From a virus, in the IMG/VR virus record IMGVR_UViG_3300045741_000135, positions 1 to 31,028 of that record: 31,028 nucleotides of DNA, one strand, 5' to 3'. Numbering within the stretch: the first letter of the stretch is position 1; each line of letters begins with the position of its first letter. Positions 1,521-28,260 of the stretch are shown in pieces. The notes under the pieces are model-generated. The model was not told the origin of the DNA. It searched no databases and saw nothing but the letters and a program-made list of their open reading frames with translations. A program made the position numbers and the translations under genes.

Positions 1521-3533
1521 ATGCAGTTGGAAGACCCAAGATTAGTATTAGCCCAGCACTTCGCAAGCTCTAGATTCTTGGCGCATGAGGTAATCTTCGC
1601 GCATAGAAGAACGTGCGACTCGTCGGGGATGCATGCGGATATTATAGGGCACCATTACTCAGATGCAGCACGCCTGCAGTTCATGGCGTTTCGAGGCTCC
1701 GCGAAGTCAACCATAGCGGAAGAGGTCTTGACTCTCGCTCCTATAATTAACTTCTCAAAGAATCCGGTCCATAACTTCCTTATCATAGGCTCCAGCGAAA
1801 CAAGAGCTGCAGAGCGCCTAGAAGCAGTCAAGCATGAGTTCGAGCATAACGAAACACTCCTGCAGACATTCGGCGAGTATAAGGGGGATACCTGGACAAG
1901 CACCAGAATCACTCTGAAGAACGGAGTATGCATTCAGGCGCTCGGACAAGATCAGTCTATGCGTGGAACGAAATACCTATCATACCGGCCAGAATTCATT
2001 CTCTTTGACGATATCGAAGATGAAGAGCACGTAGTCAACCCAGAAGCGAGACTGAAGTTCCTGCGGCGATTCATGGCGAAGATCATGCCTGCCTTCGCCC
2101 AGACGTATAGAGCGCGAATGAACTCAACGCCTCTTGATGCAGAAGCCTTAAGCGTTACGCTCTCACATGCAGACGAGTGGCAGACGAAGAAGTATCCTAT
2201 CAAGTATATCGATCCGGAAACAGGTAAGTGGAGAGCAACTTGGGAAGCCGCCTTCCCACTTAGCCGCATAGATCAGATCGAGAAGGAGTTCACCCAGAAG
2301 GGGCAGATAGCCATATTTCAACGTGAGTATATGGTGCAGGCGACAAGCATGCAGGACGCGGTTTTCAAGGAGGAAAACTTTCACTACGAGATCAAACCGC
2401 GAACATTTCAGGCGACGTATGTGATGTACGATCCGGCGCGTTCGGTGACCAAGGCCAGCGCGCACACGGGGAAGGCCGTGTGGTCCTGGGAGAACAACCG
2501 GCTTATCGTATGGGAGGCCAAGGGCGAGTTCTGGTTGCCCGACGAGATCATAGCCGATGCCCTGCAGACGGCGGAAAAGTATGATCCTGTCGGTGTTTAC
2601 TTCGAGGAAGACGGCCTCAGTGAGTTTCTTCTGCAGCCTCTCCGCACCGCGGCGAGCAAGTGCGCCCATCCATTCCCGTTCTCGCCGGTGAAGGCTCCAC
2701 GGTCCAAACTGGATTTCATCAAAGGCCTGCAGCCGTTCTTTGCCGCCAATGAGGTCGTGTTCGTCGGGAACGCGCCTGAATTCGAAACCCTGACGGCCCA
2801 GCTCAAGAACTTCCCTACGGGACGGATCGACGCGCCCAACGCTCTGGCCTACGCGCCCATGCTCAGACCGGGCATGCCGGTGTTCGAGGGCTTCCCGGAG
2901 AGCGCTATCGTCCCTGGCTCGAGCCCGGCGAAGGCGAGACCGCTGATCCTGGCTCTCAACGCCTCCAAGACCGCGCAGCAGCTCGTGGGGGCCGTCTGTC
3001 AGTACGCGGCGGGCAACTTCACGGTGTTCGCCGACTACGCCATGGAAGGCCCTCCTGGGATTCGCCTGCCCGAGATGCTGCAGTCGGCGAGCTTCGACTT
3101 CGGCCGGCGTCTGCAGGTGATAGCCCCGCCGCTTCACTTCCAGCCTTACGACACGATCGGTCTGCGGGCTGCAGCGGCCAGCATCCCCGTAGAAGTCGAG
3201 CGCGGCGGCGTCCCCCAGCAGGGGCGGGAGATCATGCGCCAGCTTCTGGACAGAACGTCGCCGAACACCGGGCGTCCGCGCCTCACCGTGGGCGAGAACG
3301 CACACTGGACATTAAGGGGCTTTTCCGGGGGCTATCACTATGATATGAATGGACGGCAAGCCGTCTTGCGACCAGAACCAAAAGACAACATTTATGCTGT
3401 CGTCATGCAGGCTCTCGAAAGCGTGGCGGCGCGATCTGGCTTAAGCCTGCAGGATGGGGATGCAAGCCACGAGCGGCACTATGCGGAAGACGATCATGGA
3501 CGCAGATACCTGACCTCAAGACCTATGAGTTGA
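1521..3533 (+). CDS. terL: Terminase large subunit (DNA-packaging ATPase/nuclease)
   Basis: This 670-aa motor protein would pump DNA into the procapsid and cut the concatemer. The ATPase domain shows a Walker A variant RGSAKST (residues 58-64) and a Walker B ILFDDIED (160-167). The RNase H-like nuclease domain follows: an Asp strand MYDPARS (D304), YFEED (360-364), and a C-terminal PTGRIDAPNALAYA (D437) in place of the usual DDxxDALAYA. The product then runs a further 220 residues past the normal nuclease end, which is longer than usual for TerL. Codon use changes sharply near 2375 (AT-rich to GC-rich) and back near 3300. The ATG at 1521 has a GAGG about ten bases upstream. No small terminase subunit is seen beside it. 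The portal starts one base after its stop. Confidence 0.92.
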   Translation: MQLEDPRLVLAQHFASSRFLAHEVIFAHRRTCDSSGMHADIIGHHYSDAARLQFMAFRGSAKSTIAEEVLTLAPIINFSKNPVHNFLIIGSSETRAAERLEAVKHEFEHNETLLQTFGEYKGDTWTSTRITLKNGVCIQALGQDQSMRGTKYLSYRPEFILFDDIEDEEHVVNPEARLKFLRRFMAKIMPAFAQTYRARMNSTPLDAEALSVTLSHADEWQTKKYPIKYIDPETGKWRATWEAAFPLSRIDQIEKEFTQKGQIAIFQREYMVQATSMQDAVFKEENFHYEIKPRTFQATYVMYDPARSVTKASAHTGKAVWSWENNRLIVWEAKGEFWLPDEIIADALQTAEKYDPVGVYFEEDGLSEFLLQPLRTAASKCAHPFPFSPVKAPRSKLDFIKGLQPFFAANEVVFVGNAPEFETLTAQLKNFPTGRIDAPNALAYAPMLRPGMPVFEGFPESAIVPGSSPAKARPLILALNASKTAQQLVGAVCQYAAGNFTVFADYAMEGPPGIRLPEMLQSASFDFGRRLQVIAPPLHFQPYDTIGLRAAAASIPVEVERGGVPQQGREIMRQLLDRTSPNTGRPRLTVGENAHWTLRGFSGGYHYDMNGRQAVLRPEPKDNIYAVVMQALESVAARSGLSLQDGDASHERHYAEDDHGRRYLTSRPMS

Positions 3534-3534
3534 T

Positions 3535-5718
3535 ATGGCCAAGAAAGAAAAAGATCTTCGGACAAAGCCTCAGAAGCATGAGGATACAGCGCCCGTGTCG
3601 GAGCGCGACGAAGAGCTTGTGACTGACGAGGCCCTGCAGGATACGCTGCTTACCATCTATAACGAGGTCAAGACAGGCTTCGAGAACCAGATAGAGAGGG
3701 TGGATAGCAACCTTGACAACTGGGACATATTTAATTGCAAGCTTGGTTCTAACCAGTTCTATAACGGCAAGTCTCAGATATTCGTGCCTATCGTCAAAGA
3801 TGCAATCAAGGCGCGTAAGACGAGATTCGTAAACCAGTTGTTCCCAGCTAATGGGCATTTGGTGGGATGTCTGAGCACCGACAGTTCGCAGCCGCACGGG
3901 ACCAAAGGTCTACTCACACACTATGTGCGCAAGGCGAAACTGCGGTCTCAGATCGTACCAGCTCTCCTATTTGCTGGGGACGTAGAAGGCCAATACTCGA
4001 TATACGTTGACTGGCTTACGACCGAGCGTCATGTTACTTATAAGTCTGACATTGCATCCGATACTGATCTAGAAGCTCTTCTTGAGGATGTTCTAGAGGA
4101 AGAGCAGGAGGACGAGGATGTTGTCATTGAGGAAGTTGTCAGACACTCATACCCACGTGTCGAGATAGTTTCAGACTCAGACTTACTTGTCCTGCCTCAG
4201 ACGTCAAACTCCATAGAAGAAGCGCTCGCCAATGGCGGCAGTGTTACTGTACGCCGCTACTGGTCCAAGGCTAAAATCCTGCAGTTGGTCGAGGATGGCC
4301 AGCTAGAGGAAGAGGCGGGCAAAGCGCTTGCTACGGAGATGAAGAAAATTGACGATGGCGATCAGTACAAGGATATCGAGAAGGAACAGGCGAAAGTCGT
4401 TGGTATTAAGAAAGACCAGCGTGGCACGCACGTCGTTGTTTTTGAGACATGGGCGAAGATCAATATTGATGGCGAGAAGCGTCTGTGCAAGTTGTTCTTT
4501 GGTGGCTCTAGGAGTTTTCTGTCCTGCAAGAGAAATCCGAACTGGTCAGATAAGGTGCCTATACTTTCCGCGCCCGTGGAAAAAGTTAAAGGCTCCTTCA
4601 AGGGCAAGAGTCAAGTTGACTCGGTAGCAGCCCTGCAGTACTATGCCAACGATGTGATCAACGAAGGTGCGGACTCAAGCCAGTTCGCTCTTATGCCTAT
4701 TGTCATGACTGATCCGACGCAGAACCCGCGAACAGGGTCTATGATTCTCAACATGGCGGCTATCTGGGAATGTAGCCCGAAGGATACGCAGTTCGTCAAC
4801 TTCCCTCCACTGTGGAAGGACGCTCTAGAGATCGTGGCTAATGTCAAGGGGCAAATACAGCAGAGCCTTGGCGTCAACCCTGCGATGATCACACAAAGCC
4901 CTGGCGCGCATAAGTCCAAGCCATCGCAGGCGCAGGTTAGCCAAGAGCAGCAGATTGATATCCTGACGACTGCGGACGCAGTGACGGTCCTTGAAGAGGA
5001 TATCTTAACGCCTCTCCTGCAGCGCATGGTGGAGCTTGATCACCAGCACAGAGACGACGACGTTATCATTCCACAGTTCGGAATTATGGGCGTAAGAGCG
5101 TCCATGGAGAGAATACCGCCTGTCCGCTTCGACAGACAGTATCACTTCTATTGGAGAGGCACAGAGCAGACACGTCAAGCGCAGATGATGCAGATACAGA
5201 TCAGCGCGCTTAACGTCGTCAAAGGCATACCTCCTGAGCAGTATAAGGGCTATGAGATCGATCTAGCGCCAGCTATAACGATGCTCATGGAGAATACATT
5301 CGGGCCGTATCTTGCCCCATTGATTTTTAAGTCGCAGAGAGAGAACTTGACAATCCAGGCCGAGAAGGAGAATCAGCTCCTTGAAGAAGGCCTGGAAATG
5401 CCTGTGCATCCCATGGACGATCACGCCGAGCATATGCAGAGCCACATGGGGGCTGCGCAGCGCAACGGCGATCCGCACGGGACGCTTCGCGCCCATCTGG
5501 CCAAGCACCAGATGATGCAGCAGGCGCAAATGATGCAACAGCAAATGCAACAGATGCAGATGGGCGGCGGCGCGCCCGGCCAGCCTCCAGGAGCGCCCCC
5601 CGGCGGCGCGGGAGGCCCAAGACCGGGCGCGCAGCCCATGCCACCCCGTGGAGGCCAGATGCCTCCCGGCGCCATCCACAATGACCGGCTTCAAGACCCA
5701 GGGAGAATGCCGCAATGA
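3535..5718 (+). CDS. Portal protein (head-tail connecting)
   Basis: This 727-aa product has the length and position, directly after terL, of podovirus-type portals. It would form the dodecameric ring at one capsid vertex through which DNA enters and leaves. Family-like features are an acidic/basic helical N-terminus, the segment NGKSQIFVPIVKDAIKARKT near residues 80-100 (a typical clamp/wing entry), an acidic linker at about 180-205, and a long Gln/Met-rich then Pro/Gly-rich C-terminal tail (about 640-727) likely to be flexible. The acidic stretch may be a surface loop. Codon use turns GC-rich from about 5,400. Its stop overlaps the ATG of the next gene by four bases (ATGA), indicating coupled translation. 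Confidence 0.85.
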   Translation: MAKKEKDLRTKPQKHEDTAPVSERDEELVTDEALQDTLLTIYNEVKTGFENQIERVDSNLDNWDIFNCKLGSNQFYNGKSQIFVPIVKDAIKARKTRFVNQLFPANGHLVGCLSTDSSQPHGTKGLLTHYVRKAKLRSQIVPALLFAGDVEGQYSIYVDWLTTERHVTYKSDIASDTDLEALLEDVLEEEQEDEDVVIEEVVRHSYPRVEIVSDSDLLVLPQTSNSIEEALANGGSVTVRRYWSKAKILQLVEDGQLEEEAGKALATEMKKIDDGDQYKDIEKEQAKVVGIKKDQRGTHVVVFETWAKINIDGEKRLCKLFFGGSRSFLSCKRNPNWSDKVPILSAPVEKVKGSFKGKSQVDSVAALQYYANDVINEGADSSQFALMPIVMTDPTQNPRTGSMILNMAAIWECSPKDTQFVNFPPLWKDALEIVANVKGQIQQSLGVNPAMITQSPGAHKSKPSQAQVSQEQQIDILTTADAVTVLEEDILTPLLQRMVELDHQHRDDDVIIPQFGIMGVRASMERIPPVRFDRQYHFYWRGTEQTRQAQMMQIQISALNVVKGIPPEQYKGYEIDLAPAITMLMENTFGPYLAPLIFKSQRENLTIQAEKENQLLEEGLEMPVHPMDDHAEHMQSHMGAAQRNGDPHGTLRAHLAKHQMMQQAQMMQQQMQQMQMGGGAPGQPPGAPPGGAGGPRPGAQPMPPRGGQMPPGAIHNDRLQDPGRMPQ

Positions 5719-9357: not shown

Positions 9358-10704
9358 ATGGCTGGCTTGAATACATCAGGTCAATTTATTACTGATATCC
9401 AGAACTATATCGCCGACGAGGTGCTACCGCTTGCCCGCCGTTGGCTCGTGGTCTATCAGTTCGGAACACCGCTGACGCTCCCCAAGGGGCAGGGCGTCAC
9501 TTATACCGCTACGCGCTTCGAGCGCGTGCCGCTGCCGTTCGCGCCGTTGTCGGAAGCAATCCCGCCTGTCGGCCAGACCATGACTATCAGTCAGGTGACT
9601 GCGACTGCCCAGCAGTGGGGCGACGTGATCACGATCTCCGACCGCGCGGAACTGACAACCAAGCACCCTGTCTTCCAGCAGGGCGTCAATCTCATGGGCC
9701 TGCAGATTGCAGAAACTCTGGAACGCAACACGTATGTGCAGCTCCTTGGCGGTACACAGATTAATTATGTCAACACCAGGGGCTCTCGCGCTGCGCTTGT
9801 TGCTGGCGACGTTCTTAATCTGCATGAAGTTAACCGGGCATTCGGTATTCTTCACACTATCGGCGCGCCTCGTTTTATGGGCGATGAGCAAACCAATATC
9901 AAACTGAAGGCGGAGGAAGGCGAGCCCAACGCAGGCAAGAACGCCCGCGCCAATCCTCACTTCGTCGCCGTCATTCATCCGCTTGTCGAACAGGACATGC
10001 GCGAGAACTCGTCTGTTATGCAGGCGTGGTCCTTCTCGGATGTGAACAAGATTTACAACTCCGAGATCGGCGAGCTGGGCGGCGTCCGCTTCTGCCGGTC
10101 GAACATGATTCCCACCTTCACCGGCGTTGCCCAGATCAACGGCACGGCGGGCACGGCGGGCACGCTGGCGACGGGCACCTACTACATCAAGGTCACCGCC
10201 TCCGACAGCCAGAACCAGTACGAAAGCCGTATCTATCAGGTTTCGACCGGCGCTGCCGTCACCGGCCCCAACGGCTCCATAAGCGTCACGTTGCCAGTCC
10301 TGGCGGGCTTCACCTTCAACGTTTACGTTGGAACCACCACGAGCCCCGCCAACCTCGGAACCTGCGTCCTCGGCCCACTGCAGGGACCATACGCCGGGCA
10401 GGCCACGCAGCTCGCCGGCGGGCAGACCGTGACCATTACTGGCACAGGCATTGCCCAGACGCCGCCAGCGGCGCCCGGAACCGGCGTGACCGTCTACCCG
10501 ACGTTCGTTTTCGGACGTGGCGCTTACGGTCAGGTTGTGCTTGACGACGTCAAGACAACCTTCTTGAAGGAAGCCGATAAGTCCGATCCCCTCAACCAAA
10601 TTCGGACTATGGGTTGGAAGGCTTATTATGGTACGCTGATCGAGAACAACACGTTCTTTATGCGTATCGAAAGCGCCTCGGCCTTCAGCACCACGTTTGG
10701 TTAA
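9358..10704 (+). CDS. Major capsid protein, N4-gp56 type, with inserted Ig-like domain
   Basis: This 448-aa product forms the icosahedral shell. Residues 1-255 and 380-448 match the N4-gp56 family pattern: a helical N-arm (ITDIQNYIADEVLPLARR), a GVTYTATRFERVPLP strand, QQWGDVITISDRAE, PHFVAVIHPLVEQDM, and a C-terminal block with FGRGAYGQVVLDD, DPLNQIRTMGWKAYY and MRIESA. About 120 residues (258-378) interrupt this fold and look like an immunoglobulin/fibronectin-type domain (TYYIKVTASDSQNQYESR, a second strand set, then GQTVTITGTG), probably displayed on the capsid surface. The ribosome site is strong (AGGAG, eight bases before ATG) and a hairpin follows the gene, fitting very high expression. 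The gene is GC-richer than its neighbours. Confidence 0.9.
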   Translation: MAGLNTSGQFITDIQNYIADEVLPLARRWLVVYQFGTPLTLPKGQGVTYTATRFERVPLPFAPLSEAIPPVGQTMTISQVTATAQQWGDVITISDRAELTTKHPVFQQGVNLMGLQIAETLERNTYVQLLGGTQINYVNTRGSRAALVAGDVLNLHEVNRAFGILHTIGAPRFMGDEQTNIKLKAEEGEPNAGKNARANPHFVAVIHPLVEQDMRENSSVMQAWSFSDVNKIYNSEIGELGGVRFCRSNMIPTFTGVAQINGTAGTAGTLATGTYYIKVTASDSQNQYESRIYQVSTGAAVTGPNGSISVTLPVLAGFTFNVYVGTTTSPANLGTCVLGPLQGPYAGQATQLAGGQTVTITGTGIAQTPPAAPGTGVTVYPTFVFGRGAYGQVVLDDVKTTFLKEADKSDPLNQIRTMGWKAYYGTLIENNTFFMRIESASAFSTTFG

Positions 10705-16501: not shown

Positions 16502-16690
16502 ATGTCTATGAAAAGTCCGAAGGGCGGCAAAGACGGCGGATGCTGCACAAGCCTGAAGTCAGGTCTTGTGGACAGACGCGTCAAGAGGCCCGATGCATCA
16601 ATGTCTGTGCCAAAGACCAGTGTAAATGCAGAAGCAACCAGAACAACCACAGCCCCAAATAACACGGGCGTCGGGCCGCGTTCGGCTTAA
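16502..16690 (+). CDS. Small basic tail-block protein, unknown
   Basis: This 62-aa product is Lys/Arg/Ser/Thr/Pro-rich with an adjacent cysteine pair (GGCCTS, residues about 13-17) and no predicted fold or membrane segment. A very good ribosome site (AGGAG, about seven bases before the ATG) supports translation even though the last 65 bases overlap the GNAT gene in another frame. Tiny, low-complexity proteins just before a GNAT gene are common in short-tailed phage tail modules, but their role is unknown. It may be disordered or bind another virion protein. Confidence 0.55.
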   Translation: MSMKSPKGGKDGGCCTSLKSGLVDRRVKRPDASMSVPKTSVNAEATRTTTAPNNTGVGPRSA

Positions 16691-17126
16691 CGTTGAACCT
16701 CTTGAGGCTATATTCGATGAGCTGCAGCCTCTGCTTGAAATGAATTGGGCAGAGGCTGCAGTTGAAAAGGACATCTCGCCGCATGATCCCGACTGGGCAA
16801 AGTACTATGCCCTGGAAGCGGCGGGGATACTTGGTATAGTAACTCTGCGTGTGAACGGTAAACTTGGTGGCTATGTCGCTTGTCTTGTTGGGCCGACAAT
16901 GCAAAGCAAGTCAACTGTCTGGGGGCAGATAGACACGATCTGGCTGCACCCAAAACTGAGACGAGGCAGGCTCGGTGACAGGTTGCTGCAGTTCGCCGAA
17001 GATCAGTTAAAGGCCGCAGGCGCGAAGATCGTCAAAATAGACACAGCCCCTCGCGTCAGCAACTGGCTTGTGCGGAAGGGCTACACAGCGCGTCACGTCG
17101 TGCTGACAAAAGTATTAGGAGAATAG
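16626..17126 (+). CDS. GNAT-family N-acetyltransferase
   Basis: This 166-aa product has the GNAT fold: an N-terminal helix pair (residues about 20-60), beta strands GILGIVTLRVNGKLGGYVACL (about 70-90), strand IDTIWLHPKLRRGRLGDRLLQFAEDQL, which contains the acetyl-CoA pyrophosphate-binding RRGRLG loop (about 115-120), and a C-terminal ...IDTAPRVSNWLVRKGY typical of this fold. The acceptor substrate is unknown. Related GNATs occur within tail and internal-virion gene blocks of short-tailed phages and might modify virion or host proteins. No good Shine-Dalgarno precedes ATG 16626, and the gene overlaps the preceding small gene, so translation may depend on coupling. Confidence 0.8.
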   Translation: MQKQPEQPQPQITRASGRVRLNVEPLEAIFDELQPLLEMNWAEAAVEKDISPHDPDWAKYYALEAAGILGIVTLRVNGKLGGYVACLVGPTMQSKSTVWGQIDTIWLHPKLRRGRLGDRLLQFAEDQLKAAGAKIVKIDTAPRVSNWLVRKGYTARHVVLTKVLGE

Positions 17127-17128
17127 CG

Positions 17129-18112
17129 ATGTCCATGGGCGGTGGTGGTAGTCCGCGAGAAGTGCCGACGCCGTACAGCGCCCCAGGCGTGGCGCAAGGC
17201 GTCGAAGGCACACAGAGCGCTATTGGCGCGTTCGGCGCACAGCCCTATTATGGCATGCAGGCCATGAACCAGGGTTACGGAAACATGGCCCAAGGCTTTA
17301 GTCCAACTGGCTACAATCCGCAGGGTGCGACGAACGCCGCCAATAGCATCTGGGGGCAGTCCAGCCAGCTCCCAGGCATGGCGAGCACGATATGGAATCA
17401 GGCCCTAGATCCGCAGAATGCCCAGAGAGCCTACGCGCTGCGCTCGGCGGACCAAACGGCCATGGCAGGCCTGTCGGGCTCGGGCGTCGCGGACACGCCT
17501 TATGGCGCCAGCGTGCGCGGCACGGTGAGCGCCAACACGAACCAGATGTTCGACGCCTACCGCAATCAGCAACTGCAGCAAGGCGGCGCGGCGGCCGGCG
17601 GGCTCCTGCAGCAGTTCGGCGGGCTGCAGGGCCTTGGCGCGCAGGTCGCACAGATGGCCCCGCAGGAACAGCAAGCCCTGCTGGCGAGCCTCACCCAGGG
17701 TGGCAACGCGGCCCTCGCTCCCTATCAGCAGATGATCAACAGCTATCTCGGCCTCGGCAATCTCGGTTCTGGCCTCTACGGCTCGGAGATATCGGGCTAC
17801 GGCGCGAGGCTTGGCGCGCAGGCGCAAGCCAACAAGGACAGCGCGAGCGGCATGCAGGGCATGGGCCAAATGGCGGGCATGGCCGCTATGATGATGATGT
17901 CTGATCGCCGACTTAAAGAGGACATAGAGCCTGTAGGCAGACTTGATAATGGCCTGACAGTCTACCTCTACAGATACAGAGACACACCGACTTGGCATAT
18001 AGGTCTTATGGCTGATGAGGTCGAAGAGCTGTACCCAGAAGCTGTTGGGCAAGTGGGAGCATTTAAGGCGGTCAATTACAAGCTTGCTACGGCTAAGGAG
18101 ATTAGACAATGA
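17129..18112 (+). CDS. Tail-block protein with C-terminal S74-type chaperone segment
   Basis: This 327-aa product has a Gly/Gln/Ala-rich N-terminal two-thirds (about 1-240) of low complexity that could form helical bundles. A methionine-rich stretch (MAAMMMM) follows, then SDRRLKEDIEPVGRLDNG through VNYKLA (about 259-320), the signature of the Peptidase_S74 intramolecular chaperone, which usually trimerises and then cleaves off tail spikes or fibres. The domain is at the extreme end but lacks the long helical tail of classical S74 chaperones, so autocleavage is uncertain. Codons change from GC-rich to AT-rich near 17,900, close to the S74 junction. A good Shine-Dalgarno (AGGAG) precedes the ATG. 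The stop overlaps the next ATG (ATGA). Confidence 0.7.
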   Translation: MSMGGGGSPREVPTPYSAPGVAQGVEGTQSAIGAFGAQPYYGMQAMNQGYGNMAQGFSPTGYNPQGATNAANSIWGQSSQLPGMASTIWNQALDPQNAQRAYALRSADQTAMAGLSGSGVADTPYGASVRGTVSANTNQMFDAYRNQQLQQGGAAAGGLLQQFGGLQGLGAQVAQMAPQEQQALLASLTQGGNAALAPYQQMINSYLGLGNLGSGLYGSEISGYGARLGAQAQANKDSASGMQGMGQMAGMAAMMMMSDRRLKEDIEPVGRLDNGLTVYLYRYRDTPTWHIGLMADEVEELYPEAVGQVGAFKAVNYKLATAKEIRQ

Positions 18113-18675
18113 GTATGGCGAATGTGGGTGGGCTCGCCGGTGGAGCTGCGCAGGGCTTGCAGGCGGGACAGCAGTTCGGCCAGAACCAGCAGATGAATCC
18201 TTATCTGTTGCAGCACCAGCAACTGCAAAACCAGCTACTGCAGCAGAGGCTTGCAGGCGGGCAGGCTGGAACCGGCTTCCAAGACTCTATCGGCGGGCAG
18301 GGCATCGCCGATATTGGCGACTATATGAAGTCGCAAGGCGGACAAGGCGGCGCAGATGTAGGAAGCGATTTCGCGAAGAACCAGGGCCAAGGCGCTGCAG
18401 GTGGACAAGGGCAAGCGCCTAATAGCGCTTGGAATAATTTAGTTGATCCGCTCGGCATTATTCAACAGCTCGGCCTGCCTCTGCCGCAAGACCCTACGAC
18501 GTTCTTGAACCAGCTTGGGCTTCCAGGCTTGGCCTTCGGAGGACAAGGGCAGCAGGGCGGAGGCGGCGCATACCTACCGAGCAGGCAGGGGCAGTCATAC
18601 GGCACACCGTCTGCGAATTACATGCAGGGCTTCCAGCCTAGCGCAACAAACTACTGGGGTATCGGAGGCTTGTAA
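18109..18675 (+). CDS. Gly/Gln-rich putative internal virion protein
   Basis: This 188-aa product is dominated by Gly, Gln, Ala and Leu. Residues about 20-65 form a Gln-rich amphipathic helix (LLQHQQLQNQLLQQRL), and the rest has GQGGQG low-complexity tracts. No domain is recognisable. Its position between the S74-type protein and two large proteins suggests an ejection or internal core protein that enters the host envelope with the DNA, a common role in podoviruses. The ATGA overlap at the start and the TAATG overlap at the end show tight co-translation. Confidence 0.55.
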   Translation: MSMANVGGLAGGAAQGLQAGQQFGQNQQMNPYLLQHQQLQNQLLQQRLAGGQAGTGFQDSIGGQGIADIGDYMKSQGGQGGADVGSDFAKNQGQGAAGGQGQAPNSAWNNLVDPLGIIQQLGLPLPQDPTTFLNQLGLPGLAFGGQGQQGGGGAYLPSRQGQSYGTPSANYMQGFQPSATNYWGIGGL

Positions 18676-21440: not shown

Positions 21441-23897
21441 ATGCCACTCAGCGCCGACGATTTCGATCCTCTTGCAAAGAGGACGGCTCCCAAGTCTGAG
21501 GGGCGTACTCCGGCAACCTCCGCCCCTTCGGCCCCTGCCCGTGGATTGGATGCCCTCTCATTCGATCCGCTGGCGCCGCGCGAGCCGCCTAAACCCACGC
21601 CTGCTTCAGGCGGCGAGTGGCTGCAGTCGATTGGCCTCGGAGCTGCAGCTCTTGCCGGTGGCGGGCTGGCGGCTCGCGCGACAGGGCTTGGCGCTCGCGC
21701 CGGGCAAGCCTATGAGCAAGCCGCCAAGAGCGCGAGCGTTGGCGGCAAGGCCATCAGCGCGCCGCAGACCATCTTCGCCCCCACGTCGATCAGTCCCGAG
21801 GCTCGAAGCGCTGAGGCCTTGATCCGCGAGAAGACCGGCTTGGGTGCTCGCGAGACGGCGATGGCGCAGGAGCCGCTGAAGGGACAGCCCAAACAATCGA
21901 GCATCCTCAACCCACTAACCTGGATACAAAAGACGCCATGGGCGGATATCGGTGGCAAGTCCGACGCGGCCAAGCGCAACTTCATCTCCTATGTCGAGGG
22001 TCGTACAGCCGGCGCAAAGCTCTCCGATCCGAGCCTGCAGCCCCTTGCCGACAAGGTGCGTGAAGCGTTCGCAGGCCCTAAGCGGCGCTCTGAGGAGCTG
22101 GGGCTCGAAGGCAAGAGCTGGGCCAAGTTCGGCTTCATCCAGGACTATTATGCCCATATGTGGGAGCGCGACGCCAAGCACGCTGAGCTGTTCTCAAGCC
22201 CTGAGGCGTTCGCCGCAGCCCATGGAAGGTTCACCAAGCAGCGCAAAATTCCGACGATAGAAGATGGGCTTGCCATGGGTCTAACGCCCAAGACGCTTGA
22301 CCCTGTGCAGACGGCGCTTGAGTATGTCCACAACGCAAACAGGTGGATAACCAACGTCGATATCTTAGAGACTGCAGCACAGAATAAGATGGTTATGCGC
22401 GCCAACAATCCGGCGAACGTGCCTCCTGGATGGCAACAACTGCATGGCGCTCTTGCTCAGCGCGGCCTGTATAAGTTCTATGCTCCTGAAGGCTTCGCCA
22501 AAGTCTATAACAACTATGTCAGCAAGGGCTTCTCTGGCGAGTACAAGGACGCCTACAATGCCGCGCGCGGCGTCTCTAACGGTCTGACGGCCTTCGAACT
22601 GGGCATGTCGGGCTTTCACGCTGGGCTGATGGGCTTCGAGGGGGCCGTGTCGGAAGCCGCGCGCGGGATCGAGCATCTGTTCCATGGCGAGTTCGGCAAG
22701 GCGGCGAAGGCCCTTGGCGGCGCGCCGTTCGCGGGCGTGCATCTGGCTCGCACGGGCGCCAAGGTCGAACAGGCGTGGCTTGGCCGCACCGAGCCGACGA
22801 AGCAGATGCGAGAGGTTGTCGATCTCCTGACGCGCGCTGGCGGACGCGGCGCAGGCATCGAGCACACGGCGGGCGAGTATGAGTTCACCGCAGCCGGTTC
22901 GATCTTCGACAGCATCCGGCGAGGCTCCCTGCGAGCGGAGATGCAGGCAGCGAAGGCGGAGATAGGGAGCCAGTACGGATGGGGAGCGGTCAAGACCCTG
23001 GCGCGCGGCGTCGGACGCGTCATGGATACGATGGCCGAGCCGCTGTTCAAAACCTACATTCCCAAGATCAAGAACGGCGCGTTCTACGAGACCATGTCGG
23101 CCTGGATCGATCGGCACCCGGAAGCAGGCCTCGAACAGAAGACTGCAGCCGCGCGGGAAATCTGGGATAGCATCGACAACCGCTTTGGACAGGTGGTGCA
23201 GGATAATATCTTCTGGAACAAATACCTGAAGCAGGCGGCTATGCTGTCCATGCGGTCTTACTCGTGGAACCTCGGAACCGTCAGGGAGCTTGGCGGCGGA
23301 GCGAAGGACCTGTTCGCCAACGGCAAGTTCACGCCTCGCGCCTACTATCTGATTGCGCTGCCTATGGTCTACGGCGTCATGTCGTCGATCTATCAGTACC
23401 TGAAGACAGGCACGCTGCCGGAAGACCTGCGCGACTACATGGCCCCCAAGACGGGAGGGATCGATCCGGCGACAGGCCAGCCCGAGCGCCGCAACGTCTA
23501 CGGCTACATGAAGGACGTGTATGGCTGGGCGGATCATCCCGTTGAAGAGCTGGGGGCCAAGTTCGGCGGCGCGCCCCATCTGGCCGTACAGCTTGCGACC
23601 GGCAAGGATAGCTTCGGCCGCCCCATCCATGCGCCCGATGATCAGGGTTTCAAGCTCATGCAGGCCTACATGAAGCATATCGCCGAAGCCTACACGCCGA
23701 TCACGGTGAAGAGCTTGCAGGGCGTCAGGCGAGGCACTAACATATCCAGGGCCGAACGCCTGGGGCTTGGCTTCCAGCCTGCAGGCCAGCAGTGGACGGC
23801 GCCCGAGCGCGCCAAGCTTCTCAAGCTGAAGCGTGAGCGTGACGAGTGGAAACGGAAAGAGCGCCAAGAGCGCAGACAAAAGAGTTTTCTTGAATGA
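21441..23897 (+). CDS. Large internal/ejection-type virion protein
   Basis: This 818-aa product is GC-rich throughout. Its N-terminus carries two copies of FDPLA (residues 8-12 and 41-45) in a Pro/Ser-rich flexible tract, followed by a Gly/Ala-rich hydrophobic stretch (about 58-82). The middle (about 150-640) is mostly helical, with many Tyr/Phe/Trp residues. A hydrophobic segment (about 633-655, YYLIALPMVYGVMSSIYQYL) could span a membrane. The C-terminus is a basic charged helix (KLKRERDEWKRKERQERRQK). This layout fits an ejection protein that forms a trans-envelope conduit, but I recognise no family. A weak AAGG lies just before the start; the gap to the previous gene contains a short hairpin. 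The stop overlaps the ATP-grasp ATG by four bases. Confidence 0.6.
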   Translation: MPLSADDFDPLAKRTAPKSEGRTPATSAPSAPARGLDALSFDPLAPREPPKPTPASGGEWLQSIGLGAAALAGGGLAARATGLGARAGQAYEQAAKSASVGGKAISAPQTIFAPTSISPEARSAEALIREKTGLGARETAMAQEPLKGQPKQSSILNPLTWIQKTPWADIGGKSDAAKRNFISYVEGRTAGAKLSDPSLQPLADKVREAFAGPKRRSEELGLEGKSWAKFGFIQDYYAHMWERDAKHAELFSSPEAFAAAHGRFTKQRKIPTIEDGLAMGLTPKTLDPVQTALEYVHNANRWITNVDILETAAQNKMVMRANNPANVPPGWQQLHGALAQRGLYKFYAPEGFAKVYNNYVSKGFSGEYKDAYNAARGVSNGLTAFELGMSGFHAGLMGFEGAVSEAARGIEHLFHGEFGKAAKALGGAPFAGVHLARTGAKVEQAWLGRTEPTKQMREVVDLLTRAGGRGAGIEHTAGEYEFTAAGSIFDSIRRGSLRAEMQAAKAEIGSQYGWGAVKTLARGVGRVMDTMAEPLFKTYIPKIKNGAFYETMSAWIDRHPEAGLEQKTAAAREIWDSIDNRFGQVVQDNIFWNKYLKQAAMLSMRSYSWNLGTVRELGGGAKDLFANGKFTPRAYYLIALPMVYGVMSSIYQYLKTGTLPEDLRDYMAPKTGGIDPATGQPERRNVYGYMKDVYGWADHPVEELGAKFGGAPHLAVQLATGKDSFGRPIHAPDDQGFKLMQAYMKHIAEAYTPITVKSLQGVRRGTNISRAERLGLGFQPAGQQWTAPERAKLLKLKRERDEWKRKERQERRQKSFLE

Positions 23898-25204
23898 GAG
23901 TCTTGATAATTGACCAGTTCGGCATGTCTGTTGATATGGCCGTGCGGATGCAAGATCAGGGACATAAAGTCAAAGCGTTCATCCCCAAGGATGAGAAGTT
24001 GTCATCCATCGGTAAGGGGTTGATAGATGTCGTCAGAGAGTATGAGCCCTGGTTCCGATGGGCCGACGTTATTGTCAATACCGACAACAACAAGTACGTG
24101 CGCGATCTGGAATTGGCCAAAGCTGCTGGCGTCCCGGTCGTTAGCGCCAACAGAGAGTCTGCAGACTGGGAACTCCTGCGCGGCGTTGGGATGGAGGTCA
24201 TGCGCAAAGCGGGAATCAAAATCCCGGACTGCGAGACGTTCACCGACTATGATAAAGCCATAGCGCACGTCAAGAAGACGGGCAAGCGCTTCGTATCCAA
24301 GCCGGATGGAGACGCGGACAAAGCCCTCTCCTACTGCAGCAAGAGCCCTGCAGACATGGTGTACATGCTGGAGCGCTGGAAGAAGATAGCCACGAAGAAA
24401 GCGCCCTTCATCCTGCAGGAGTTCATTGGCGGAACTGAAATGGCCGTGGGCGGCTGGTTCGGACCAGGAGGCTTCAACGAAGGTTGGTGCGAGAACTGGG
24501 AGTTCAAGAAGCTGATGAACGATGAGAAGGGCGTTGCTACCGGCGAGCAGGGGACCGTCCTTCGATACGTGCGAAACAGCAAGCTGGCGCGCCTTGTCCT
24601 GCAGCCCGTAGAGGATATGCTGGCGAAGGTAGGCTACGTCGGCTATGTAGACGTTAACTGCATCATTGACGATAAGGGCCAACCATGGCCGCTTGAATTT
24701 ACAATGCGCTTCGGCTGGCCTACCTTCAACATTCAGTTGGCGCTGCACGACGGCGACATAGCCGAGTGGTTGCTTGGACTAGCAGAAGGAAAGGATACGA
24801 GGCCATGCAGGATGAACGAGACGGCGATAGGGGTGGTAGTGACCATCCCGGATTATCCCTACTCGCACGCAACAAAAAAGGAAGTAACGGGCGTGCCGAT
24901 ATACGGGATCGACACGAGGCTGAGACCGCATGTTCACCCGGCAATGATGATGCTAGCGGACGCCCCAAACGACGTGGAAGACGAAGTAATAAACATGCCG
25001 ACGCCGCAGACAGCAGGGGACTACGTTCTGATCATGACGGCGACGGGGCAGGAGATAAGCACCTGCAGACGCACAGTCTACAATCGCTTGGAGAAATTAT
25101 CGATTCCCAACTCCCCGATGTACCGAACGGATATAGGGCGGAGGCTGCGTACCCAACTACCGTTAATCCAGAAACATGGTTTCGCGATGGGGATGAAGTA
25201 CTAG
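23894..25204 (+). CDS. PurD-like ATP-grasp ligase
   Basis: This 436-aa product has the order of phosphoribosylamine-glycine ligase (PurD): an N-terminal nucleotide-like fold starting MRVLIID, a pre-ATP-grasp segment, the ATP-binding Lys in RFVSKPDGDADKA (K136), a hinge strand PFILQEFIGGTEMAVGGWFG (residues 171-190), and the metal/ATP loop LEFTMRFGWPTFN (267-279). In PurD that loop reads EFNxRFGDP: here the metal-binding Asn is Thr (T270) and the Asp is Trp (W275). The PurD N-terminal GNGGREHA loop is absent. The end (TATGQEISTCRR... RTDIGRR) still matches PurD's last domain. A substrate other than glycine plus phosphoribosylamine is therefore likely; an amino-acid or peptide ligase on phage or host material is my inference. 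It starts by a four-base overlap with the large virion gene. Confidence 0.8.
   Translation: MRVLIIDQFGMSVDMAVRMQDQGHKVKAFIPKDEKLSSIGKGLIDVVREYEPWFRWADVIVNTDNNKYVRDLELAKAAGVPVVSANRESADWELLRGVGMEVMRKAGIKIPDCETFTDYDKAIAHVKKTGKRFVSKPDGDADKALSYCSKSPADMVYMLERWKKIATKKAPFILQEFIGGTEMAVGGWFGPGGFNEGWCENWEFKKLMNDEKGVATGEQGTVLRYVRNSKLARLVLQPVEDMLAKVGYVGYVDVNCIIDDKGQPWPLEFTMRFGWPTFNIQLALHDGDIAEWLLGLAEGKDTRPCRMNETAIGVVVTIPDYPYSHATKKEVTGVPIYGIDTRLRPHVHPAMMMLADAPNDVEDEVINMPTPQTAGDYVLIMTATGQEISTCRRTVYNRLEKLSIPNSPMYRTDIGRRLRTQLPLIQKHGFAMGMKY
24874..24880 (+). promoter_or_regulatory. Candidate -1 ribosomal frameshift heptamer
   Basis: A AAA AAG lies in the phase required for -1 slippage: reading frame ACA AAA AAG (T327 K328 K329 of the ATP-grasp protein). 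A -1 shift enters the frame that stays open to 25,500. It is the same heptamer that directs frameshifting in bacterial dnaX. A weak downstream stem (CCG ATATA CGG, enclosed by CGTG and CACG) is present; no clear upstream Shine-Dalgarno stimulator is seen. Speculative. Confidence 0.3.
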
Positions 25205-25224
25205 ACGACAAGTATTACTATCAT

Positions 25225-25500
25225 GTGACTGCGCTTATCCGCAGGAACAAGATACAGATATTGGAAGCGCCGCTTGACCAGGAGGCTAAGAACTTCTCAG
25301 CCCTCCTGCGCGCTAAGTCGGCTCTCGTTATGTCTCATGAAGGCATGCAGGTGCGCGTCGGCGAGGCTGCAGTCGCCGTGAAGATGAAGCAGCGTGAGGA
25401 CTGGTCCGAAGTGTTCGCCGCCGTCGAACGGGCGAAGGCTCAACGCCAACGCCTGATCGATAGCAACATGATAGACGAGTCAGTGCTCGACATCATCTAG
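25225..25500 (+). CDS. Small protein after the ATP-grasp gene, start uncertain
   Basis: The last rightward gene. The listed 91-aa product starts at GTG 25225, twenty bases after the ATP-grasp stop, with no visible ribosome site, so coupling or another start is likely. The frame is open back to 24,766. ATG 24805 has a good site (AAGGAAAGGA, nine bases upstream) and would give 231 aa overlapping the ATP-grasp gene by 400 bases. A -1 frameshift at 24,874 could also enter this frame. The shared C-terminal part is helical and charged (RRNKIQILEAPLDQEAKN, then VAVKMKQREDWSEVFAAVERAKAQRQR), without recognised family. Third-position base use favours the ATP-grasp frame up to its stop. It ends by a 21-base tail-to-tail overlap with the opposing primase-helicase gene. 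Confidence 0.5.
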   Translation: MTALIRRNKIQILEAPLDQEAKNFSALLRAKSALVMSHEGMQVRVGEAAVAVKMKQREDWSEVFAAVERAKAQRQRLIDSNMIDESVLDII

Positions 25501-28260
25501 CTTCCACTTCTTTAGGCTCATGATAATGACACGCTCTCTGCCCTTGGTGTAGGTTGGCAACCCATCCGTGAGATCACGGGGCGTGTCCGCATCGGCGTCG
25601 CGTTCTACGTAGCCCTCATCTACCATCCACTTTATGAACTCCTTGGGCGACATGCTGTAGTCTGCAAGGAACTTGCTCAGCGACTTGCGGCTGATAAGCA
25701 TGCGCGCCTTGTGCACCTCGTATCGCTTGGCTATCTCTTCTCTTGGTTCCAACGATCTGTCGGCAATGCTAACCATGGTTTTGCCGGTGGGAGACTTGCC
25801 GTGCACAACCGTCAATGTTTTGTCGCGCGTGACGTCGAAGAACTCACGCAGGATATCTTCCTTGCTATCCGTCTTGCTGTACCCTGGTTCGCTCTTGACC
25901 TCGGCTATCAGCCAGTTGGTGTAGCGCTCCTGATCGAAGCGCGCCAGCTCCAAACGATTAAGCAGCGCAGCGGCGACGCTGGCGCAGGCAAGGTAATTCA
26001 CCTTGTAGCGGTATTTGACGTCAGGCAGCATGTCGGCGAAGTACACCTGTGTCGCCTGCAGTGTCTTCTTTATCCTAGGTAGGTTCCTCAAAACGAAGTC
26101 GAGAAAGATAGGCCCCGCCCACCCTGGGTTTTGTGTGAGCTGGGAAAGCAGCTTGGCCGAGCCCTTGCTTGGCAGCGAGGGGACTTCAGTTTCAAAGACG
26201 CGCGCTTGCATGGCGTCGGAGCCCTGGTACTGGCTGAGGGCCGCGATCATGGATGTGTTGGCGGTCACGATGTGAACGGAGCTTCGACGGTCCCGGTCTG
26301 GGTTGACTTTGCCGTCCCGGCCCGAACGCTGCTTGTTCATGCCGAGTGTGAAGGCGGTAACCCGGTCTTTGACCTGCTGCGCGTCCTGGCGGATGCTCTC
26401 ATCTTCGAACGTGGGCAGGCCCCCGGCGCCGGACCAGATATTCGCCCGCGTCACTTCCGAAGCCGTGGCGGTTATCTGCAAGGCCCGCTCGAGGCCCCAC
26501 ACCGACTGGGCAAGCTGGCTCGCCGTCGTCTTGCCGCCTCCCGTCTTAGGGCTGCAGTAGGAGCGAAGGACGCCGCCCTCGGTGGGAGCGAGCACACCCA
26601 TCAGGACCGACGCGAACGAGGCCACAAGGGCGTCAAGCTGGAACTCGTATCCGGGCTGCAGGCAGGGCAGGACGGCCTCTCGCCAGCCTTCCAGACTTCC
26701 CATGCGTCGCCCGCCCCCTGGCTGCAGCTCAACGGCCTTGGCGGAAGCGAAGCTGTCGGGCTGCAGGGCTGCAGGTTTCGAGCCCTGATCAGTGAATAGG
26801 GTCTGGCCGACGAGGAAGCCTTCACGCTTCCAGCCAAACGATTTGTACAAGTCCGCCATGCGTGGGCCTCGGTTCACTTTTGCTATGCTTGCGGTAATGA
26901 AGTGCGTCATAAGAGCTGGGTTATAGATTGCCGGGCCGAACGTCCGTATCTCCGTTAGGCCAGACTGCCCCGTCAAGTCGCGCTGCAGAATGATGTTCTG
27001 TTCTAACTCCTGCTCGCCGACGTTGTACTGCTGCAGAACAACATACTTTTTATTACTATCTTCATCCTTGGCGATGCCTACAACACGTATAGGCGTGTCG
27101 CAAATCAACTCATCCTTCTGCCCTTCAGGCGTGCTTGTACGAAAGACAAGCTCGTGTGCTTTGTTCAGCGCGTAGCCGTCCGGATACTCTTTCTCCCATG
27201 TCGTAAAGCTGACAACCTCGCCGCTCGCCGCAACAACGTCCTCTGCGGGTTTGGACCGTAGCACCCCCAGTTCTGCAGGCCCCTTGATATGCCCTTTCCA
27301 GATGCAACCTTCGCATAGGTCATTGTGTTCTGAAAACGAACTGCATGCGTGCGGCGCATCAATCTCAATCGCCGCATCAAACTTAGCTTGTGCCTCTTCG
27401 GACGAATAGCCTTGGTAAGAACTTGACCATTCATGAAACAGGCGTTCGCCGTCCATGCAGGTTGCAAGAATAGACGCCGCGCTGTGCCAATGCGGCTCCG
27501 TATCACTGCCTGTCTCCTGGAAGTGTCTGATCTGGGCGCAGTTCTCAACTATGAGCCCTGCGTCCTTGTTATGCTTATGAAAACGGGTAATTTTTTGTCT
27601 GACTGGTTTGGCGTTGTCCGTGACAGTGTGAACTGCAGCTCCGTGTTTATGCAAGGCCCGCTCAAAATCTGCCGCATCATGTCGCTCATCAGCTGCTCCA
27701 TCATCAATGATAAACGCCTGCGCGCCTCTTGTGTGGTTGAAGCTTCCGGGTAGTCGCATGATGCTTGCGGCGTCGGCTGTCCGTGCAGGGTCCAGTCGTA
27801 CGCCCACCGACTGCAGGCCCTTTTTGAGGGCTCGGGCGAGACTGTGCCATAAGGCATGGTCAAGCGGCTCTCGGAAGATGTACCAGCCTTGGACGCCTCC
27901 GCCAGACCAGACACGGATCGGCGAGGGTAGTCCAAGAGCTGCAGGGCCGTCCAAGGCTGCTTGGGCGGCTTCTTCGACTGTGTCATATCCTTTTCCATCC
28001 CCGTGGGCGTCTATGTCAAACCAGAGGGCGCGAAGTCCGACAACGTCGGTTTTCTTGCGCCCTCCCCCCTCTCCGTATGCCGCAGGGGCGAAATAAACAT
28101 TCCGCCCCTGTTCGTTTGCCTGCATGAGCTTTAGGACCAAGTCCTCTATGTTCTGGGCGCTAACGTTCCTGCCCGTCCCCTTCGTCTGCCCCGCAACGAA
28201 GCCGACGTAGCGGCCTCCATCAGGAATGATCTGTGACAGGAACTTTGCTATTTCGCGCAT
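25480..28260 (-). CDS. Primase-helicase (RepB/AEP-type primase, SF3/DUF927-like ATPase)
   Basis: This 926-aa replication protein has two parts. The N-terminal part resembles archaeo-eukaryotic-type primases: metal-binding LWFDIDAHG (D82, D84), the SGGG loop (119-122) followed by VQGWYIF, and TADAASIMRLPGSFNHT. The usual His of the S-x-H motif seems to be Gln (Q124). A zinc-binding motif (C306, C316, C319, in CSSF... CEGCIWKG) separates this from the C-terminal ATPase, with Walker A PKTGGGKTTA (571-580) and Walker B LPTFEDES (615-622), then VHIVTANTS as sensor. It should initiate and unwind phage DNA replication. It overlaps the next upstream gene by 41 bases. Its 3' end runs 21 bases into the last virion-side gene. 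Confidence 0.85.
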   Translation of the reverse strand: MREIAKFLSQIIPDGGRYVGFVAGQTKGTGRNVSAQNIEDLVLKLMQANEQGRNVYFAPAAYGEGGGRKKTDVVGLRALWFDIDAHGDGKGYDTVEEAAQAALDGPAALGLPSPIRVWSGGGVQGWYIFREPLDHALWHSLARALKKGLQSVGVRLDPARTADAASIMRLPGSFNHTRGAQAFIIDDGAADERHDAADFERALHKHGAAVHTVTDNAKPVRQKITRFHKHNKDAGLIVENCAQIRHFQETGSDTEPHWHSAASILATCMDGERLFHEWSSSYQGYSSEEAQAKFDAAIEIDAPHACSSFSEHNDLCEGCIWKGHIKGPAELGVLRSKPAEDVVAASGEVVSFTTWEKEYPDGYALNKAHELVFRTSTPEGQKDELICDTPIRVVGIAKDEDSNKKYVVLQQYNVGEQELEQNIILQRDLTGQSGLTEIRTFGPAIYNPALMTHFITASIAKVNRGPRMADLYKSFGWKREGFLVGQTLFTDQGSKPAALQPDSFASAKAVELQPGGGRRMGSLEGWREAVLPCLQPGYEFQLDALVASFASVLMGVLAPTEGGVLRSYCSPKTGGGKTTASQLAQSVWGLERALQITATASEVTRANIWSGAGGLPTFEDESIRQDAQQVKDRVTAFTLGMNKQRSGRDGKVNPDRDRRSSVHIVTANTSMIAALSQYQGSDAMQARVFETEVPSLPSKGSAKLLSQLTQNPGWAGPIFLDFVLRNLPRIKKTLQATQVYFADMLPDVKYRYKVNYLACASVAAALLNRLELARFDQERYTNWLIAEVKSEPGYSKTDSKEDILREFFDVTRDKTLTVVHGKSPTGKTMVSIADRSLEPREEIAKRYEVHKARMLISRKSLSKFLADYSMSPKEFIKWMVDEGYVERDADADTPRDLTDGLPTYTKGRERVIIMSLKKWKLDDVEH

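Follow-up and report, generated by a model that had tools for sequence, protein, structure and literature searches.

Why should a phage carry, at the end of its late operon and directly behind genes of the ejection region, a ligase that resembles the purine-biosynthesis enzyme PurD, the glycinamide ribonucleotide (GAR) synthetase? The question is raised by a 31-kb virus record (IMGVR_UViG_3300045741_000135, 31,028 nucleotides), which is called the window here. An open reading frame (ORF) check of the window gave the PurD-like gene as an ORF of 436 amino acids (aa) at 23894-25204 on the plus strand, whose ATG start shares four bases (ATGA) with the stop of ORF 21441-23897, just as an earlier note made from the sequence alone (the original prediction) had described it. 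The best explanation, to which we give a rough probability of 0.55, is that the product is an accessory ATP-grasp carboxylate-amine ligase of a PurD-derived family, which is not a GAR synthetase and acts with the ejection machinery or is delivered by it. The gene and its parts are as follows.

23894-25204, plus strand: PurD-like, almost certainly non-PurD, ATP-grasp ligase, 436 aa (profiles, AlphaFold2 (AF2) model, tree, residue table)
Residues 1-92, about 93-300 and 311-417 of the ligase: Rossmann-like N domain, ATP-grasp and GARS_C-like domain
24692-24724, plus strand: metal/carboxylate loop LEFTMRFGWPT, residues 267-277 of the ligase (translation, residue table)

We consider it nearly certain that the ligase is not PurD. 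Among the Pfam models, GARS_A is above its cut-off (34.1 bits, cut-off 27) and GARS_C below (30.1 bits, cut-off 34.8); the NCBIfam purD model (TIGR00877, a curated equivalog) gives 86.8 bits and does not reach its cut-off of 288, and PHROGs have no family for the ligase. The N-terminal phosphate loop GNGGREHA is absent, with IDQFGMSVDMA in place of IGNGGREHA, and it is missing from the viral and cellular look-alike rows too; the EFTMRFGWP loop, the other deviation from PurD pointed out originally, lies at residues 268-276. A maximum-likelihood tree with 15 PurD sequences resolves three separate groups, with Shimodaira-Hasegawa-like approximate likelihood ratio test (SH-aLRT) values of 100 for PurD, 98 for the phage proteins and 88 for the cellular look-alikes. 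The ligase branches outside the PurD clade, the separating branch is long (1.75+1.75), and the cellular look-alikes are the sister group of the phage clade. The original prediction had named a position inside true PurD, with all catalytic residues kept, as the outcome that would speak against a non-PurD ligase; the score, the separate clade and the changed residues described below are the opposite of this. As it had also claimed, the window proteins that were scanned include no further purine gene. Moreover, purF was at or over its cut-off in none of 34 full-size relatives, and therefore the ligase is, as far as tested, not part of a phage purine pathway. Matches in phage collections other than MW202796 were set aside: they are 20-27% alignments, the annotated ones are labelled phosphoribosylamine--glycine ligase, and they are probably host PurD contamination.

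The viral clade comprised 63 relatives in the first scan, and the second scan brought at least 598 confirmed matching stretches in IMG/VR. Purifying selection is suggested by a median ratio of nonsynonymous to synonymous substitution rates (dN/dS) of 0.33 over 1,703 pairs, a value that is indicative only, as the pairs have a common descent and dS frequently exceeds 1. Since there are hundreds of homologues and the median dN/dS is 0.33, the ORF is more than a chance frame. The nearest isolate copies are those of Paraburkholderia prophages and of a Rhodanobacteraceae isolate, which points to Pseudomonadota hosts. Apparent ligase fusions of 1,259-1,341 aa in L085 and L087 proved to be spurious open frames in GC-rich DNA, and longer viral ligase ORFs were artefacts of upstream starts.

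The structural comparison, which had been suggested along with the phylogeny and the survey of gene neighbours, was made with an AF2 model built on an 85-row alignment (predicted local distance difference test score (pLDDT) 94.6, predicted template modelling score 0.92); AF2 with the single sequence gave a pLDDT of only 32. The top structural matches in PDB are all GAR synthetases, matched over the whole chain (Z 32-36, 2.9-4.1 Å), with 17-23% identity to PurD in the structural alignments, and the next families, PurK, PurT and biotin carboxylase, stay well under PurD, with Z up to 25 (PurK 25). Judged from the model, the ligase is a protein with the complete PurD fold, and thus with the ATP-grasp fold. 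Among the matches listed for viral structures in BFVD there was no full-fold match, the best template modelling (TM) score being about 0.4. The L-amino-acid ligases BacD/YwfE and related enzymes have the ATP-grasp fold and acyl-phosphate chemistry in common with the ligase, although only at a Foldseek TM of about 0.5-0.6 and 12-14% identity. With PurD (TIGR00877; PF01071 and PF02843) the ligase shares the whole fold, the domain order and an RxD near the C-terminus.

What the active site retains was read from the ligand-contact residues of Aquifex PurD, of which D212, R287 and E292 contact glycine (PMC8880213). These contacts were mapped onto 69 viral or prophage and 69 cellular relatives (138 rows). 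Kept in all 138 rows are E100, K143, E192, K214 and R287, which are E93, K136, E182, K205 and R272 in the ligase, and E268 is kept in all of them as well. K103 is R96, a conservative and invariant change, and E185 is Q175 in all viral rows and Q or M in the cellular ones. The glycine site, in contrast, has changed: D212 is E203 in 138 of 138 rows, E292 is lost (T277 in the window ligase, mostly T, L or G across relatives), and R272 is thus the only one of the three contacts that is kept. When the loop is compared with that of PurD, E268 and R272 are retained, whereas N, D and E have become T270, W275 and T277, so that GDPE reads GWPT. The metal-loop asparagine N285 is T270 in every row of both sets, and D253 and N255 are gained on the adjacent strand, where PurD has Tyr and Gly. 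The altered loop is therefore not peculiar to the window phage, T270 and E203 being invariant in both sets of relatives; since a PLEFT pattern was among those that retrieved the cellular set, this set is biased towards T270, while the patterns used for the first viral set did without it. Because the ATP and acyl-phosphate residues are kept, we predict from the sequence, and regard as likely, that the protein is an active ATP-grasp ligase, in line with the original prediction. As this machinery is kept and the contacts D212 and E292 and the metal-loop N285 are altered, it is recognition of the carboxylate and the acceptor that has changed. By analogy with ATP-grasp chemistry, the ligase would turn a carboxylate into an activated acyl-phosphate, hold this with R272 and transfer it to an amine; whether that carboxylate is an amino acid we regard as an even question.

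The cellular look-alikes also argue for a function other than that of PurD. These chromosomal proteins (L078-L146; about 26-34% identity to the ligase) come from candidate phyla radiation (CPR) bacteria, DPANN archaea, Planctomycetota, Acidobacteriota, Myxococcota and Methylocystis. They share TGEMGT, PLEFTxR and the E203/T270 signature with the phage ligase; unlike it, they lie on chromosomes beside PrmC-like methyltransferase, PF14518 diiron oxidase or SET genes and not beside ejection genes. A true PurD over the cut-off was found alongside the look-alike in 23 of 44 genomes, and in 5 of 6 in another set; most of the remaining genomes of the 44 are small CPR or DPANN genomes without true PurD. 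In the purD profile, the co-resident true PurD scores 366-582 bits versus 65-124 bits for full-length look-alikes. Since the look-alike coexists with true PurD or occurs where PurD is absent, it does a different job. In bacterial look-alike loci, a haem-oxygenase-like diiron protein (PF14518) adjoins in 17 of 80 and a PrmC-like methyltransferase in about 20. The viral loci were searched for genes of the methyltransferase, haem-oxygenase-like diiron oxidase, SET and LPG types, which accompany the cellular look-alikes, and none was found. The PrmC-like methyltransferase, the PF14518 protein and the look-alike form a conserved chromosomal cluster (L132:6046-9359, L146, L142, L095, L134 and others) in Methylocystis, Myxococcota, Gemmatimonadota and others, which looks like an uncharacterised biosynthetic module. 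SET-domain genes lie near the look-alike in L105, L108, L118, L109, L110, L119, L133 and L142, all of them CPR or DPANN except L142 (Alphaproteobacteria).

The position of the phage gene is the second line of evidence. The gene order gp14-gp15-gp16 described for podovirus ejection genes (PMC8954989) matches the loci found here, and in the window it is arranged with the following genes.

1521-3533, plus strand: terminase large subunit
3535-5718, plus strand: portal protein
9358-10704, plus strand: major capsid protein, the marker used for sampling relatives
16626-17126, plus strand: GNAT acetyltransferase of the same operon (PF00583, 35.0 bits, cut-off 20.7)
17129-18112, plus strand: gp14-slot protein, 327 aa, with a C-terminal Peptidase_S74 chaperone domain
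18109-18675, plus strand: ejection-region protein, 188 aa
18675-21389, plus strand: large protein of the same late operon (ejection region), 904 aa, no family match
21441-23897, plus strand: large ejection-slot (gp16-slot) protein, 818 aa, overlapping the ligase start by four bases, no Pfam or PHROG match
25222-25500, plus strand: small (about 90 aa), helical-looking conserved ORF directly downstream of the ligase
25480-28260, minus strand: primase/helicase-like gene (DUF927), convergent, closing the late operon

The tie to the end of the virion operon that the original prediction had stressed recurs outside the window. The ligase directly follows a large ejection-slot gene in window-type phages, Paraburkholderia prophages, MW202796, G019 and G020; no relationship can be recognised among the capsid and tail genes of these phages. 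In the Rhodanobacteraceae prophage the two genes are separated by a gap that contains a short ORF. The four-base overlap is found in 55 of 127 loci, and a spacing of -20 to +60 bases in 87 of 127. The upstream ejection-slot genes fall into 21 BLAST clusters. It can be proposed that the ligase has no part in purine synthesis but is active late in infection, acting on the ejection proteins or together with them; it would either modify these proteins or be packaged and delivered with them. We judge the chances evenly balanced that its function is tied to the ejection module.

The ligase is an accessory gene, probably useful but not required. Of the 19 records of at least 40 kb that were sampled by the capsid gene, 15 carry it. 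The clearest absence is in G085, whose capsid protein is 69% identical to that of the window: a homologous ejection protein is retained, and its gene overlaps the small downstream gene by four bases. G086 has the same closed junction, although the contig holds only a part of its ejection gene. In N97 (G097, L401:2839-7294), which also has no ligase, the ejection slot is filled by an LPD38 polyvalent protein, next to which lies a Mom gene for DNA modification; N96 and N102 carry homologues of this LPD38 protein. The ligase is thus found in none of three LPD38-type relatives, too few for a correlation with the type of ejection protein. The GNAT gene had been suggested as a partner acting on the same target, and it is indeed encoded in the same operon and found in 27 of 34 ligase-carrying records. 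The link is, however, weak and the pairing not obligate, because GNAT occurs without the ligase in the close relatives N85, N97 and N96 and was not detected in 7 of the 34 ligase phages. In some ligase phages its slot is taken by an Asp/Asn beta-hydroxylase-like gene (PF05118; L253:6820-7380, L256:3097-3702, L264:18627-19184), a family that was over its cut-off in 1 of 28 records scanned.

What, then, could the ligase do for the phage? If it were a true PurD, an auxiliary metabolic gene (AMG) boosting host purine synthesis during infection, then its best Pfam, NCBIfam and PDB matches, all of which are PurD, would be explained, and viral purD/GART has been reported as an AMG in snow and ocean viruses and as a shared viral protein cluster in vents (PMC11097641, PMC12043954, PMC11360552). 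We regard this as very improbable: the protein is far under the purD cut-off and outside the PurD clade, it lacks GNGGREHA and E292 and has E for D212 and T for N285, no purF reached the cut-off in its relatives, and the cellular relatives occur either next to a true PurD or in genomes that have none. Its annotation as a metabolic gene is probably wrong. A maturation enzyme, which would attach a group to virion proteins, such as those of ejection or the tail, before the virions are released, fits the translational coupling to the ejection gene and the presence of other modifying enzymes (GNAT, Asp/Asn-hydroxylase-like) in the operon. However, the neighbouring ejection genes belong to many unrelated families, while between most of these phages the ligase keeps an identity of about 45-60%, and a conserved protein substrate next door is therefore not obvious; G085, moreover, keeps its ejection protein without the ligase. 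We hold this possibility to be rather unlikely. Of similar, low probability is an injected effector, packaged with the ejection proteins and modifying, within the first minutes of infection, a protein or metabolite of the host for take-over or counter-defence. The ligase adjoins ejection genes, ligase-less relatives hold in the ejection slot an LPD38 polyvalent protein, whose class has been reported to be packaged and injected (PMC5512222), and the ejection-slot protein of G019 contains an internal GNAT domain; on the other side, the ligase was not found fused to any ejection protein.

The same doubtful standing is given to a late-expressed cargo gene at the end of the operon, whose enzyme would make a small molecule or modify the host envelope, for example for superinfection exclusion. 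The accessory pattern, an integrase-like gene near the Paraburkholderia prophage ligase, and the gene clusters of cellular look-alikes, which include a methyltransferase and a diiron enzyme of the haem-oxygenase-like kind and so recall small-molecule pathways, are in its favour; however, the place after ejection genes is constant across unrelated phages and no partner of the cellular clusters occurs in the viral loci. Several points weigh against an accessory ligase that acts with or is delivered by the ejection machinery. As 4 of the 19 capsid-matched records are without the ligase, ejection proteins do not need it; the ejection-slot genes were assigned by position and size, most of them having no family match; and the ligase may instead have a late-expressed metabolic role. 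The loss of the phosphoribosylamine (PRA) site is likewise argued from the missing P-loop only, so that it stays putative, and PRA binding in PurD itself was not seen in a structure (PMC8880213). The most specific version of the proposal, a PurD-fold ligase that is packaged and ejected with the DNA-ejection proteins and, as infection begins, joins a carboxylate (which may be an amino acid) to a target in the host, while in CPR bacteria, archaea and Pseudomonadota the same family serves a pathway independent of purines, is speculative.

The family is abundant, has no PHROG model and stands beside ejection genes in unrelated phages, and the literature searched yielded no account of a PurD-like ATP-grasp family of this kind. 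It points to an unstudied ligase function in phages and, via the sister group, in cellular lineages, many of which are without PurD. If the viral purD/GART genes reported from snow, vents and the ocean belong to it, then the claims that viruses boost purine synthesis have to be corrected.

Other ATP-grasp ligases of phages, likewise of unknown substrate, are found in early clusters of the LUZ24/phiEco32 type (PMC3890496 for the amidoligase/ATP-grasp system of LUZ24-like phages). These, however, are small RimK-like proteins of the early region, accompanied by a COOH-NH2 ligase and GATase, and no linked COOH-NH2 ligase, amidoligase or GATase gene was found among the window proteins scanned. G019 carries both systems separately, its early cluster (L319:9649-14459) comprising Peptidase_C26, COOH-NH2_lig, Amidoligase_2, GATase and a RimK-like ATP-grasp protein apart from the late PurD-like gene, and the ligase as part of such a system was therefore ruled out. 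The internal GNAT domain of the G019 ejection-slot protein (1,132 aa, L318:12771-16166) spans residues about 305-382. The small ORF downstream of the ligase has no clear start codon where one is expected, its frame being open from 24766, far back into the ligase gene. The Peptidase_S74 intramolecular chaperone domain that ends the gp14-slot gene is unusual for an ejection-region protein.

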